A stretch of DNA of 43,713 bases, taken from contig CAMDDJ010000024.1 in assembly GCA_945891385.1 (NCBI GenBank), forward strand, positions 1 through 43,713. The letters are read 5' to 3'. Below are positions 8,902-33,666 of this stretch, one piece after another. This DNA is from Candidatus Kuenenia stuttgartensis. GTDB taxonomy: Bacteria; Planctomycetota; Planctomycetia; Pirellulales; UBA1268. The first letter of the stretch is position 1; every line of letters begins with the position of its first letter. The position numbers and the translations under genes are program-made. The notes under the pieces are model-generated. The model saw nothing but the letters and a program-made list of their open reading frames with translations, ran no database searches and was not told the origin of the DNA.

Positions 8902-9000
8902 CCCCGACGCCGGGAAGGCGGCATTCCGACCAAATACATCGGAATGTTGGAGTCGATGAGCCGGGCCGAACCCGGGGCGGCAAGCACGGCCTGGGGGGAA

Positions 9001-9058
9001 GCGTCAGCCACCAAATCAAGGCAATCTAGCATCCTGCCCAGATTTGGTGGCTGGCACC
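9001..9058. repeat. palindromic repeat A (GCCAGCCACCAAAT family)
   Basis: A near-perfect inverted repeat: left arm GTCAGCCACCAAATC (9003-9017), right arm GATTTGGTGGCTGGCA (9041-9056), and a partly self-complementary centre (GGCAA...TGCCC). It lies between the converging glycosyltransferase-like and PEP-CTERM genes and could also act as a bidirectional transcription stop. Copies B, C and D are at 10262, 11228 and 11417. Confidence 0.8.
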
Positions 9059-9087
9059 ATTTCCCGATGGCACCAATTCCATGAGGC

Positions 9088-9813
9088 TTAGGACTTCACC
9101 TTGCAGCGGGCCCGCCAGGCGACCACGCCTGCGGCACCGAGGCCGAGCAGGGCCACGCTCGAGGGCTCCGGCACCACATTGACGCGGGTTACGATGCCGC
9201 TAACGCCGGTGAAGCTGTAGCTGCCGACGTTGAAGTTGGACGTGAACGAGCCCGCACCCATGTCGAATGACCCAGCCCCCGAGATCGTGAGCACTTCGCC
9301 GCCAGACAACGCGGGATAGCTGAAGTCGAATTCACCATTCCGGATGTAGAAGCGAAACGCCGGATCGCTCGTAAACTCGACCGTCCATTCACCCTCACTG
9401 GCGAAGCCGCCCCCAACTTTTTCGACTTGCGATCCATTCACGGACAGAACCGGGAGACCGGAAGCGGAGAAGACGCCGGACGTGACGTTCGTGACACCGA
9501 GCAACTCGGAGCCAGGATTGTCGAAATCCCCTTCCGAGAAGTAGGACGACCAGTTGCCGTTCTCCGGAAGGCGGAGCGCGCTCGAGGGCTCAGGACCGGT
9601 GACGGTGTAGCCCGCGGTGATGGTGGTTGAGCCAGAGAACTGGTAGTTGACGACGGAGCCGCCGCCATCGCTGAGGTCAAGAACCAAGGCCGCCCGGGAC
9701 GTCAGCGGCGCGGCGGCGAGCAGCACGAGAAACGAGAAGACAGCGGCTCTCATCAGCCTAGCAGCATACAGCAGGCAGTCTGTGCGGCGGTTCACCAGCT
9801 GAGACATTTTCAT
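9088..9813 (-). CDS. PEP-CTERM surface protein
   Basis: A 241-residue exported protein. An N-terminal signal peptide (AVFSFLVLLAAAPLTSRAA) follows a basic leader. The body is Gly/Ser/Thr-rich beta-type sequence with no recognised enzymatic domain. The C-terminus is a standard PEP-CTERM sorting signal: VVPEPSSVALLGLGAAGV followed by a basic tail. Exosortase is expected to process it. The ATG at 9813 begins the leader, with GAAAGG about 8 bases upstream; ATG at 9807 is an alternative. The gene has its own regulatory region: a sigma-54 promoter at 10015-10030 and palindromes at 10128-10219, giving a leader of about 190 bases that is strikingly A/T-rich at 9880-9945. Confidence 0.87.
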   Translation of the reverse strand: MKMSQLVNRRTDCLLYAARLMRAAVFSFLVLLAAAPLTSRAALVLDLSDGGGSVVNYQFSGSTTITAGYTVTGPEPSSALRLPENGNWSSYFSEGDFDNPGSELLGVTNVTSGVFSASGLPVLSVNGSQVEKVGGGFASEGEWTVEFTSDPAFRFYIRNGEFDFSYPALSGGEVLTISGAGSFDMGAGSFTSNFNVGSYSFTGVSGIVTRVNVVPEPSSVALLGLGAAGVVAWRARCKVKS

Positions 9814-9879
9814 CGGAGGGCCTTTCACTCTCAGGTGGGAAGGTACGAGACGCGATTCACAAGCCAGGAAAGTCTCATG

Positions 9880-9945
9880 TGATGCCTTTAAATCTGTAAG
9901 GAAAAACGAAAAAAAGCTCGAACGAAATCTCAACCAATCGAGCGA
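9880..9945 (-). promoter_or_regulatory. A/T-rich leader segment of the PEP-CTERM gene
   Basis: Within a very GC-rich region this short stretch is rich in A and T, with oligo-A runs on the plus strand (GAAAAACGAAAAAAAGC). It falls in the predicted untranslated leader between the sigma-54 start site (about 10003) and the ATG. It may mark low RNA structure or a protein-binding site; no known riboswitch is recognised. Confidence 0.35.
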
Positions 9946-10014
9946 TCCCTGAGTCAGGTTCGTCGAGGGGTGAACAGTGGCCGGTGCGGTGCGCCCCGGC
10001 TCGCCCCCTTCATT

Positions 10015-10030
10015 TGCAACCCGCGTGCCA
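10015..10030 (-). promoter_or_regulatory. sigma-54 (-24/-12) promoter of PEP-CTERM gene
   Basis: On the minus strand the sequence is TGGCACGCGGGTTGCA, an exact match to the sigma-54 core TGGCACG-N4-TTGCA, preceded by T and followed by AAT as in strong sites. It points at the PEP-CTERM gene beginning at 9813, with a predicted start of transcription near 10003. Sigma-54 promoters require an enhancer-binding ATPase; candidate sites are the palindromes at 10128-10219. Confidence 0.78.
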
Positions 10031-10127
10031 AACCGGCCGCCGAAATCGGATGAAACGCGAAGCCCTTTGTTTTCAAGGCCTATTCGACCGCGGGGCCGGC
10101 GGCGGCCCGGGCGAGCGATCGGGCGAG

Positions 10128-10219
10128 GTGGGGCGATTCGCCCCACTCAGGCCGGTCAGCTGGAGCGAAACCGCTCACCACGACTAGGAATAAGTGGGGC
10201 GATTTCGCTCACCACGACT
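10128..10219. promoter_or_regulatory. cluster of palindromes, candidate enhancer-binding-protein sites
   Basis: Three dyads are visible. GTGGGGCGATTCGCCCCAC (10128-10146) is a perfect 9-bp inverted repeat around one base. GAGCGAAACCGCTC (10163-10176) has 5-bp arms. GTGGGGCGATTTCGCTCAC (10194-10212) is an imperfect version of the first. The 14-base word CGCTCACCACGACT is repeated at 10172-10185 and 10206-10219. The cluster lies 98-190 bp upstream of the sigma-54 promoter at 10015-10030, the usual range for NtrC-type activators. The regulator itself is not in the window. Confidence 0.55.
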
Positions 10220-10261
10220 CGTGATGGAAATCACTACCGCTGGCGACGAAAAAGCGGGAAA

Positions 10262-10308
10262 AGGTGCCAGCCACCAAATCTGGGCAATCTGGCATCTCGC
10301 TCAGATTC
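10262..10308. repeat. palindromic repeat B (left arm and centre)
   Basis: It begins GGTGCCAGCCACCAAATC, followed by the family centre TGGGCAATCTGGCATC and CTCAGATT. The right arm then decays: CAGCGG stands where TGGTGG is expected. It lies about 50 bp beyond the 3' end of the nucleotidyltransferase gene and has the same orientation as copy C on the other side of the cassette. Confidence 0.75.
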
Positions 10309-10358
10309 AGCGGACCGCCGTTTTTGTCCGCTCCAGCGTTGGCGAGCCGCGCTTCGGC

Positions 10359-10943
10359 CTATTCTCCAATCACCGCCAGGGCCGCCTCCAGCCAGGCGGT
10401 CCGTTGCTCTTCGCCGTCGGCCACTGTCGCCCATTCACGGCGAATGAGATCGACGTCGAGTTCCGAGGCATTCGCGGCGATCAGCGTGCGGATGTCTTCC
10501 TGATCCTGGGGGCGAAAGGCCACCATCTTCGTGATGATCAGACCCTCGGGCGCGAGCACCCGGAGTGAGTGGCCGGCCGTCCACGGTAGCGACGTCGCCG
10601 CGGCCAGCGCATTGGCGTAGAGCGGCAAAACCGGCTTGAGCCAGTCGATCCGAACCACGCCAAATCGGAAGGCCGTCATGTGATGCTGAACGAATTCCCG
10701 GATGACGGTGTCAGCGTCGAGCGAGAATCCGCGGCGGGTTAGTTCCTCGAGCAGACCGGGCAGAGCCACCTGGGGCACGGTGAGCAGGATGTCTACATCC
10801 TGTGTGAAACGGGGGCGGCCTCGGAGCATCGTCGCGAGTCCACCGAGCAGGGCGTATTCGATGCCACGCTCGGCGAAGACGTGGCTGAGCGTCTCGACGG
10901 CCGTCACCAGATCGCCCGCAAGCGACTCAGCGGGTTCGGGCAT
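10359..10943 (-). CDS. nucleotidyltransferase-fold protein (AbiEii/MNT-like), cassette gene 2
   Basis: A 194-residue protein with the nucleotidyltransferase fold. The helix ETLSHVFAERGIEYALLGG is followed by ATMLRGRPRFTQDVDILL, which gives the GG and the D-x-D that bind metal and nucleotide in MNT/AbiEii-type enzymes. Later come FGVVRIDWLKPVLP, LRVLAPEGLIITKMVAFRPQDQEDI and a helical C-terminus. Relatives act as toxins or antitoxins that add nucleotides to tRNA or AMP to proteins. The start at 10943 overlaps the end of the upstream small gene by 17 bases, so translation is probably coupled. An in-frame extension upstream is discounted because it runs through the partner gene. A toxin-antitoxin role is inference. 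Confidence 0.8.
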   Translation of the reverse strand: MPEPAESLAGDLVTAVETLSHVFAERGIEYALLGGLATMLRGRPRFTQDVDILLTVPQVALPGLLEELTRRGFSLDADTVIREFVQHHMTAFRFGVVRIDWLKPVLPLYANALAAATSLPWTAGHSLRVLAPEGLIITKMVAFRPQDQEDIRTLIAANASELDVDLIRREWATVADGEEQRTAWLEAALAVIGE

Positions 10944-11169
10944 GTCGCACCACGAACTGGCTGATCGCCTCCCGGGCGGCCTGCTCCTGCCGCTGATGCT
11001 CCGCTTCGAGATGGGCTCGCTTTGGAGACCTCGCCTGCAAGATCGCTCCTCCAGCGAGAGCCGATCGAATCGCCCGCATCCGCTCCTCGGGCGGGGCGTT
11101 GCGAAAGCGGGCAGCCTCCTCGGCCACGACCGCAGAGTCGCTCGGAAAACGGAGGACATCGACGGCCAT
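10927..11169 (-). CDS. small helical partner of the nucleotidyltransferase, cassette gene 1
   Basis: An 80-residue, highly charged, helical protein. Core features are EEAARFRNAPPEERMRAIRS, then RSPKRAHLEAEHQRQEQAA and ISQFVVRH. It has no helix-turn-helix, zinc site or membrane segment that I can see, so it is neither AbiEi nor a HEPN protein. It precedes and overlaps the nucleotidyltransferase gene, as first genes of toxin-antitoxin pairs often do. I recall similar small genes next to such nucleotidyltransferases, but cannot confirm it. Role as antitoxin or adaptor is inferred from gene order only. Confidence 0.7.
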   Translation of the reverse strand: MAVDVLRFPSDSAVVAEEAARFRNAPPEERMRAIRSALAGGAILQARSPKRAHLEAEHQRQEQAAREAISQFVVRHARTR

Positions 11170-11227
11170 GGCGCGGCACCGCTCTCAACCGGGATTCGCA
11201 TATCTCCCGGAAGTATACGAACCAAAC

Positions 11228-11245
11228 GGTGCCAGCCACCAAACC
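11228..11245. repeat. palindromic repeat C (left arm only)
   Basis: The word GGTGCCAGCCACCAAA (11229-11244) is identical to the left arm of copy B; the rest of the element is not recognisable. It lies about 60 bp upstream of the two-gene nucleotidyltransferase cassette, in direct orientation with copy B. Confidence 0.7.
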
Positions 11246-11416
11246 TCGGCGGCAACCGGTTCGCCTGCTCGAATTGAGCCGGATTCCGCAGGCTACAAGC
11301 CCGCGGCCACGGGGGTCTTCCGGGGCGACGGTTGGCCTGAGGGGAAGCCGAAGGTGGAGGCTCGGGGTGGAGCAGAGGCGGTGTCGCCCATCTGCCCGGA
11401 ATTCCCGGCTGACAAG

Positions 11417-11482
11417 CAGTCAGCCACCAAATATGGGCAAGCTGGACTCTTCGCCAGATTTGGTGGCTGGCGGCTTTTTTAT
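11417..11482. repeat. palindromic repeat D followed by T-runs
   Basis: Left arm GTCAGCCACCAAAT (11419-11432), a centre resembling copies A and B (GGGCAAGCTGGACT), and right arm CAGATTTGGTGGCTGG (11455-11470). The right arm runs into CGGC and then TTTTTT (11475-11480) and a second T-run, so this copy would also work as an intrinsic terminator for a transcript moving rightward. Confidence 0.78.
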
Positions 11483-32550: not shown

Positions 32551-32612
32551 TCGGCGGTCTGCCACGCGGGCCGGGTCTCCGCGCCAGAGGCCGGCCCGAG
32601 TTTCCCTCGACC
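32551..32612. other. start of the intergenic region after the ketosynthase
   Basis: The 309 bases from 32551 to 32859 hold no gene. This first part shows nothing notable; the rest contains the dyads at 32613-32661, an inverted CGTTTC/GAAACG pair around a short A-run (32704-32738), and the sigma-54 promoter at 32772-32787. Confidence 0.5.
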
Positions 32613-32661
32613 GGTGAAGCCTTCACGGGAGTGGTGAAACGGCCATTCACCGTCCGGGTGA
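32613..32661. promoter_or_regulatory. GTGAA/TTCAC dyads, candidate enhancer-binding-protein sites
   Basis: GTGAAGCCTTCAC (32614-32626) is a perfect 6-bp inverted repeat around one base. GGTGAA (32633-32638) and TTCACC (32646-32651) form a second dyad with a 7-base spacer. A third half-site GGTGAAG follows at 32656. They lie 111-160 bp upstream of the sigma-54 promoter at 32772, where activators of this class normally bind. Confidence 0.5.
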
Positions 32662-32771
32662 AGTGATCCGCCCTGCAGCGTTGGGCCTGTGGGCGACGGC
32701 ACGCGTTTCATGGCGTAAAAAAGCCGCTTTCGAAACGAACATTGCCCGCTCACGAATTCCTCACACGCGAA

Positions 32772-32787
32772 TGGCACGTGGCTTGCA
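32772..32787 (+). promoter_or_regulatory. sigma-54 (-24/-12) promoter of PEP-CTERM operon
   Basis: TGGCACGTGGCTTGCA matches the sigma-54 core TGGCACG-N4-TTGCA exactly. The predicted start of transcription is near 32799, about 60 bases before the GTG start at 32860. The element is independent of, but identical in core to, the one at 10015-10030 upstream of the other PEP-CTERM gene. Confidence 0.8.
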
Positions 32788-32859: not shown

Positions 32860-33666
32860 GTGTTTCGAACGTTCATGCATCGGTTTGGGATCGCGTCGGT
32901 TGCCGTCGCGGGCTGTCTGGCTGCGGCGGTGACCTCGGTCCATGCGGCCGTCGTGCTCGACTATGACCTCACGGCAGTTCCCAATACGGCGGTCACGACC
33001 GTTGCACCCACGACCGTGGCGGGCGGCCTGACGGCGAGCGATCTGACGCGGGGCGCCGGGATCACAGCCACGAACCTCACCTCCGGGTTTTCATCGAACA
33101 ACTGGGCCGCCACGACCGCCAGCCGGCAGAACGCGATCGATACCAATCAGTACTACCAGTTCGGCTTCACTGTGGTGCCCGGTGGAAGCGTGTCGCTCGA
33201 GCAACTGGAAGTCGGGCTGCGGCGGTCCGCCATTGCCGCTCCAATGAACTACGAGTGGCAGTACAGTCTCGACGGGTTTGCGACGGCGGGAAATACGATC
33301 TCGGTCTCCGGTTCTCCGTACTATTCGACTGGCGCGTTTACATACTTCGGCCGGTCGAGTGGTACGGGAGGCATTGCGGACAATTTCAACTACATGACCA
33401 CCGACGTGTCCGGACAGAACGCCGGGAATCCCATGGCTCCGCTCGACCTCACCGGGATCACGGCCCTGCAGAACATCACGGCCGGCTCGACGGTCGACTT
33501 CCGCCTCTACGCCTGGGGCGACGGGACGGGAGCGACGAGTAACACGGTTGCTCTTGGCCGGAATCTCGGGCCCCGCCTGAGCGGTGTCGCCGTGCCGGAG
33601 CCGACCAGCCTGATCCTCGTCGGTGCGGCCTTGGCGGCCGGAGTCGGATTCGTCCGCCGCCGCTGA
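32860..33666 (+). CDS. PEP-CTERM surface protein, first gene of a two-gene operon
   Basis: A 268-residue exported protein. The signal peptide is IASVAVAGCLAAAVTSVHA (cleavage before AVVLDYDL). The body is a Thr/Ser/Gly-rich beta-sandwich-like region (FTVVPGGSVSLEQLEVGLRR, YEWQYSLDGFATAG, VDFRLYAWGDGTG) of the kind often found in PEP-CTERM proteins. The C-terminus VAVPEPTSLILVGAALAAGV plus FVRRR is the sorting signal. The start is GTG at 32860 with GGAGG about 8 bases upstream; ATG at 32875 is possible. Its stop overlaps the ATG of the next gene (TGATG), so the two proteins are made together, under the sigma-54 promoter. Confidence 0.9.
   Translation: MFRTFMHRFGIASVAVAGCLAAAVTSVHAAVVLDYDLTAVPNTAVTTVAPTTVAGGLTASDLTRGAGITATNLTSGFSSNNWAATTASRQNAIDTNQYYQFGFTVVPGGSVSLEQLEVGLRRSAIAAPMNYEWQYSLDGFATAGNTISVSGSPYYSTGAFTYFGRSSGTGGIADNFNYMTTDVSGQNAGNPMAPLDLTGITALQNITAGSTVDFRLYAWGDGTGATSNTVALGRNLGPRLSGVAVPEPTSLILVGAALAAGVGFVRRR

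Follow-up and report, generated by a model that had tools for sequence, protein, structure and literature searches.

How is the PEP-CTERM gene that begins at position 9813 of this DNA controlled, and does it share that control with the second PEP-CTERM unit on the same stretch? The window analysed here is a whole contig (43,713 nucleotides; C24) of a genome of 3,768,324 bases in 150 contigs (G000), the named relatives of which are Planctomycetota MAGs. The original prediction placed a full-consensus sigma-54 site before each unit, described upstream palindromes of two kinds, and suggested more than one activator. In a group of planctomycetes, some genes of exported PEP-CTERM proteins seem to lie under enhancer-dependent promoters with two types of landing site, each probably read by a different activator.

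The probable promoter and the palindromes upstream of the gene at 9813

The gene (9088-9813, minus strand) starts with an ATG at 9813, a downstream ATG near 9753 also being possible. Its product ends in a PEP-CTERM motif (VPEPSSVALLGLGAAGVVAWRAR..., 9103-9174, minus strand) and has the VPEP motif, hydrophobic stretch and basic tail of the family, with scores above the cut-offs of both profiles (TIGR02595, 26.9 bits, cut-off 16; PF07589, 29.9 bits, cut-off 20.7). Upstream of it, the predicted -24/-12 core, TGGCACGCGGGTTGCA at 10015-10030 on the minus strand, is indeed an exact match to TGGCACNNNNNTTGCW (TGGCAC-N5-TTGCW), and transcription would start near 10004 if, as we assume, the usual spacing from the -12 element applies. 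A second exact core is likewise present in the window at 32772-32787 (plus strand), ahead of the PEP-CTERM gene of the second unit (32860-33666, plus strand).

The segment 10128-10146 is a perfect 19-base palindrome, as first described, with the 9-1-9 form GTGGGGCGA-T-TCGCCCCAC. It lies 97 bp upstream of the core and two mismatches from GTGGAGCGAATCGCTCCAC, the word that represents the site class termed B here, and is a putative class B enhancer. In dinucleotide shuffles of 9840-10359, a 9-1-9 palindrome arose in seven of 2000 and a class B match with at most three mismatches in one of 2000. The two other dyads reported, 10163-10176 and 10194-10212, exist as degenerate class B relatives with six mismatches each; the former is contained in 10160-10178, and in the latter one half-site is preserved and its partner is offset by a single base. 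The duplicated 14-base word, CGCTCACCACGACT, is found at 10172-10185 and 10206-10219, inside a 25-nt direct repeat (10161-10185 and 10195-10219, 84% identity). Site centers in this region are approximately 32.5 and 34 bp apart, placing the outer copy (10194-10212) slightly off helical phase. What has to be given up is the consensus first proposed, GTGRGCGA/TCGCYCAC, which derives from the degenerate copies; the consensus that recurs in the genome, a 19-bp palindrome, is GTGGRGCGAWTCGCYCCAC.

Two repeats of another kind surround the gene. An 18-nt word, GATTTGGTGGCTGGCACC, occurs five times, on both strands, within 9000-11474 (at most three mismatches; 0.02 expected), and has at most one three-mismatch match in the other stretches of the genome examined. 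A 32-nt inverted pair (9035-9066 and 10255-10286, 97%) brackets the whole unit, promoter included.

Genome-wide, TGGCACNNNNNTTGCW has 11 exact matches against two for the reversed pattern, and five of the 11 have a TIGR02595 match in the same orientation no more than 1.1 kb downstream (n = 72; binomial P 5.6e-8). The search that gave these 72 matches, 61 of them over the cut-off, was run at E up to 1 and also matches in 7 of 14 control genomes (two over the cut-off), which leaves the weaker matches uncertain as PEP-CTERM proteins. Two more exact cores (C7:68318 and C16:866) precede ORFs with a PEP-CTERM-like tail, judged by eye, and one precedes a pseudo-receiver ORF. The core at C16:866-881 lies 38 bp before its 250-residue ORF, and inspection of the preceding 250 bp by eye showed neither site class. 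A further exact core (C15:28299-28314) lies upstream of an ORF that appears by eye to be DnaK-like, with a chaperone-like ORF following it. Loose matches were rejected as evidence. Cores with up to two mismatches are at chance in the window (12 observed, 13.1 expected), and degenerate cores (at least 9 of 11) are not enriched before PEP-CTERM genes, with 29 sites before 24 of the 72 genes against 49 sites before 30 of the 72 in the reversed control. Weight is given below only to exact cores, or to cores combined with an enhancer.

Two site classes and their targets

Upstream of the core at 32772 lie three dyads of the form TTTCAC-N7-GTGAAA (32601-32663; starts 32601, 32621 and 32645, with 2, 1 and 2 mismatches), which include those noted previously at 32613 and define class A (core form TTCAC-N7-GTGAA). 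The pattern is found at 13 places in the genome at one mismatch (control, 1). Eight of the 72 PEP-CTERM genes have a core and a class A site (at most two mismatches) within 300 bp upstream, and three have a core and class B. No core of the PEP-CTERM list carries both, and none of the 49 reversed-control cores carries either. The dyads at 10128 and 32613 are different, as supposed: their classes recur separately.

With up to three mismatches allowed, a genome scan with GTGGAGCGAATCGCTCCAC gives 31 rows on the two strands combined (2 rows in the control), which correspond to 19 places. Seventeen of these places are grouped into eight promoter regions, all of which have a core scoring 9-11 of 11; 16 lie upstream of the core and one (C1:33362) downstream. 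The nearest upstream site is 81, 83, 96, 97, 105, 108, 118, or 119 bp from the core. The layout at 10015-10146, with an activator site upstream of the core, is that of all eight regions, and it is found in relatives as well. The other two places are single sites inside ORFs (C2:38781 and C18:30018). Three of the eight regions (C24, C55, and C123) precede PEP-CTERM genes over the cut-off, and two serve proteins with a sub-threshold PEP-CTERM motif (at C13 a sulfatase-modifying-factor-like protein, and within the C1 cluster a subtilase-family protein encoded downstream). The C7 region precedes a 118-residue protein with a PEP-like tail and no Pfam match, followed by a receiver-like protein; the region at C15:34773 precedes a pseudo-receiver, and that at C15:64940 lies at a contig end, with no target assigned.

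The strict class B pattern STGGRGCGAWTCGCYCCAS (one mismatch) is present in 20 of 22 genomes of the genus, being absent from G001 and G007, and the reversed control is zero in all 22. A looser scan of 40 relatives finds some match in 39, with an excess over the control confined to the genus, bar small counts in a few others; in G024 the counts are 3 and 3 against 0 and 0. Taking the best match in each genome, 12 of 13 loci in relatives combine class B with a core scoring at least 9. Recognizable genes downstream are a pseudo-receiver (four), its small upstream neighbor (one), a short PEP-like protein (two), or a PEP-CTERM gene (three), two loci having no ORF listed. Pseudo-receiver loci from named Planctomycetota records (n = 24) have class B in 23 and a core in 24, in a set that overlaps the genome-set contigs (for example L368, L371, L372, L382, and L387) and is thus not independent of it. 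These 24 come from 31 named loci, of which 28 are pseudo-receiver homologs; four of the 28 had too little upstream DNA and were left out, as were the marginal matches L393-L395 (Bacteroidales and Nitrospinaceae records), which have no class B. Across the regulon as a whole, orthologous genes keep both the dyads and the cores upstream.

Neighboring class B sites keep to helical turns of DNA. Among 56 distinct pairs in the stretches examined, the spacing is 20-24 bp in 19, 31-33 bp in 17, 41-45 bp in 19, and 54 bp in one. The best period is 10.6 bp (6-20 bp tested), and none of 20,000 random sets of 13 distinct spacings was as strong. Orthologous promoters, it should be noted, are not independent of one another.

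The recurrent pseudo-receivers score below the Pfam Response_reg gathering value (22.7, 14.7, and 22.8 against 30.2 bits). In a predicted structure (mean pLDDT 77.8), strands and helices alternate in the order typical of a receiver, and receiver domains are the best matches to it among solved structures (E 6e-8). At what we take, from the usual receiver motif, to be the position of the phosphorylated Asp, every aligned sequence (7 of 7 and 14 of 14) has Ala, Ser or Asn. A free-standing receiver-like protein recurs as a class B target at L141 (C1 of this genome, 31942-32969), L158 and relatives; in the C1 locus it adjoins aroB, by eye.

The 9813 protein itself has no full-length ortholog among the 21 other genomes of the genus, and C-terminal partial matches in four of them. 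None of the five loci of these partial matches has class B; one has class A, and two have a core scoring at least 9. The class A locus is L411 (G020:C265), where the gene of a protein matching the C-terminal part has class A sites, a weak core and no class B, so that site class may switch between related genes.

Candidate activators

The genome encodes nine enhancer-binding proteins with strong PF00158 matches (E 3e-63 or better) and has two weak matches; in the activator profile, one of 65 matches (L321) was left out. Three of the nine, the C34-, C31-, and C2-types, lack an N-terminal receiver match and vary in distribution. The other six were rejected for class B: five are found in 7 of 7 profiled genomes and the C21-type in 6 of 7, and they do not track the sites, since all six are present in G001 and G007, which lack strict class B. 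PrsR was also rejected as the activator, as all nine proteins, at 262-366 bits, fall short of the TIGR02915 cut-off of 502.6 bits.

For class A, we propose the C34-type protein, which the sites appear to track, as candidate reader. Its gene (G000:C34, 9306) lies just after a class A PEP-CTERM gene, and 18 loci of the type include eight with a PEP-CTERM-like tail within 1.5 kb, eight with a core scoring at least 10, and six with both. An exact TTC[AG]C-N7-G[TC]GAA lies beside the gene at 14 of 17 C34-type loci in relatives; for other related activators, 2 of 8 loci have one. Locus L190, which holds the C34-type gene of the genome under study, has no exact class A palindrome. Site and recognition helix vary together. 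Where the helix is LGVHLNTMTRL (four genomes), both of the two loci having a site show TTCAC halves; where it is LGVSLNTMTRL (12 genomes), 12 of 12 loci show one TTCGC half or more. The number of class A sites per genome follows helix type only partly, the His type having 0 (G003) and 2 (G006), and the Ser type 7 (G016) and 5 each (G021 and G005). As an activator of class B, the C34-type was rejected, no such gene being found in G015 and G018, which are class B-positive.

The activator of the class B promoter at 9813-10219 is, on balance, probably the C31-type protein (G000:C31, 14414-15550), whose gene matches class B genome by genome within the genus, occurring in the 20 of 22 that have the sites and lacking from the two that do not. 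Among 18 genomes outside the genus, an ortholog (73%) was found only in G024, where a core and a pseudo-receiver gene are preceded by three sites resembling class B, placed at 33-bp intervals and with 4, 3, and 4 mismatches. A comparison of six genomes gave one and the same helix word for the C31-type, as would fit a class B that stays constant. The idea that the C31-type gene regulates itself through class B was rejected: no class B site (at most four mismatches) adjoins it in 19 orthologous loci (L336-L354), and in L154, the locus of this genome, the only such match is approximately 6 kb beyond the gene. The gene order around it (L154, 2690-13370), which runs from a chemoreceptor and a binding protein through the C31-type activator to lpxA and TPR proteins, is conserved. 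Of ten relatives, LpxA is a neighbor in ten, and a chemoreceptor, a periplasmic binding protein and a large TPR protein in nine each, the misses coinciding with locus ends.

It is possible, if rather unlikely, that class B is read instead by the C2-type protein (G000:C2, 103738), which is also receiver-less and has no clear orthologs in G001 and G007, the two genomes with no strict class B. Within the genus it fits class B as well as the C31-type does, and it is opposed by its spread to other families: related proteins with the helix LGVHANT[LM]TRL or a close form occur there (five of seven such loci outside the genus have it), and loose class B counts are near the control in most of these families. 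Its helix is also similar to the one found in the C34-type, a protein with class A sites.

That the two dyad classes are variants of a single activator's site is very improbable. Both span 19 bp and have GTG/CAC triplets at or near the half-site, as this reading would have it, but the separation of the classes among PEP-CTERM cores speaks against it, as do the class B sites of two genomes in which the search gave no C34-type gene (G018 and G015), and the variation of class A between genomes against the constancy of class B. A supposition of more than one activator is supported, and scanning upstream regions against the set of activators gives each class its own best candidate in relatives, class A tracking the C34-type and class B matching the distribution of the C31-type.

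In favor of the core at 10015 being a chance match, with the 9813 gene driven by another sigma factor, loose cores are at chance level; exact cores, on the other hand, are rare (11 against two) and clustered before PEP-CTERM genes, and this one stands at the usual distance from class B sites, making the idea hard to credit. Least plausible of all is that the palindromes, GC-rich and perfect or near-perfect inverted repeats as they are, represent RNA hairpins (terminator or attenuator) or a dispersed mobile repeat and not protein sites, given that 16 of the 17 promoter-region copies in this genome lie upstream of their core and so would not be transcribed from it, that the number of copies differs between promoters and their spacing follows helical turns, and that only two of 19 lie elsewhere, inside ORFs.

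Proposed mechanism and comparison with known systems

The segment 9813-10219 is very probably a sigma-54 promoter with a class B enhancer. Sigma-54 RNA polymerase would sit at 10015-10030 and stay closed until the ATPase of an activator acts; the activator, bound at 10128-10146 and at the two weaker sites of class B, would loop over and open the promoter. Class B would then form one regulon of eight promoter regions in this genome, with PEP-CTERM genes and small pseudo-receiver proteins as targets, and the class A sites at 32613 and elsewhere a second. The receiver-less C34-type would read class A, and the receiver-less C31-type class B. The sequence itself shows the sites, the two classes they form, their helical spacing and conservation, and the agreement of distributions; binding, looping, the identities of the activators and the signal are parts that we infer. 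The complete scheme (enhancer-dependent promoter at 10015, two regulons, and this pairing of readers) is considered reasonably likely.

It is tempting to speculate that two receiver-less activators divide the PEP-CTERM set of the genus between a fast-evolving pair (helix His to Ser, site TTCAC to TTCGC) and a genus-wide frozen pair, whose most conserved target, a pseudo-receiver that has lost its phosphorylation site, may serve as a separate control domain for the receiver-less activator that drives it, closing a feedback loop; at present this is a doubtful extension. The two site classes split the PEP-CTERM genes into two separately testable groups. The co-variation of class A site and helix offers a natural series for changing activator specificity, and with each class paired with a named candidate among nine proteins, the question of the regulator becomes directly testable.

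A 2004 survey of sigma-54 regulons by Studholme and Dixon is said to have included Planctomycetota. Within the literature searched, which left most subscription journals outside its scope, no paper on these two site classes was found and no planctomycete PEP-CTERM sigma-54 regulon is described. A 2025 survey predicts planctomycete sigma-54 promoters, including those of chaperone and protease genes (PMC12316311); PEP-CTERM and exosortase are absent from the accessible part of its text, which notes that activator specificity was not to be had for every organism.

In Proteobacteria, PEP-CTERM genes are already known to come under sigma-54 control (PrsK/PrsR). The TGGCAC-type promoter of pepA in Aquincola tertiaricarbonis, transcription of which is RpoN-dependent according to the available portion of that report (PMC9850573), makes it a PEP-CTERM gene with a promoter like those described here. 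Unlike the present case, the organism is a proteobacterium with PrsK/PrsR, and the same portion mentions an enhancer predicted earlier and leaves the mechanism open (PMC9850573). No PrsT (TIGR02917) was identified near the C31-type gene: the 1454-residue TPR protein 1.5 kb away has PrsT as its best NCBIfam match, at 161.4 bits, below the cut-off of 312.2.

The closest parallel is the PrsK/PrsR/PrsT system of Haft et al. 2006 (PMC1569441), whose motifs, in the part of the paper available, are common only to the Proteobacteria of their set. As here, that part describes PEP-CTERM genes that stand singly behind long upstream regions, with a sigma-54 core, an upstream activator motif, sometimes repeated, and an enhancer-binding protein as the proposed activator. 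In Proteobacteria the site is a 17-nt motif 1 ending in TTTACA, which lies at a mean distance of 62.8 nt from the core (range 32-92), and there is a single response regulator (PMC1569441, same part); compared with this description in words, the class A and class B consensus sequences both differ. In the planctomycete genome, two classes of 19-bp palindrome are found instead, class B lying 81-119 bp upstream, and the candidate activators are receiver-less. Enhancer-dependent control of PEP-CTERM genes would thereby reach into Planctomycetota, where both the site code and the candidate activators are different.
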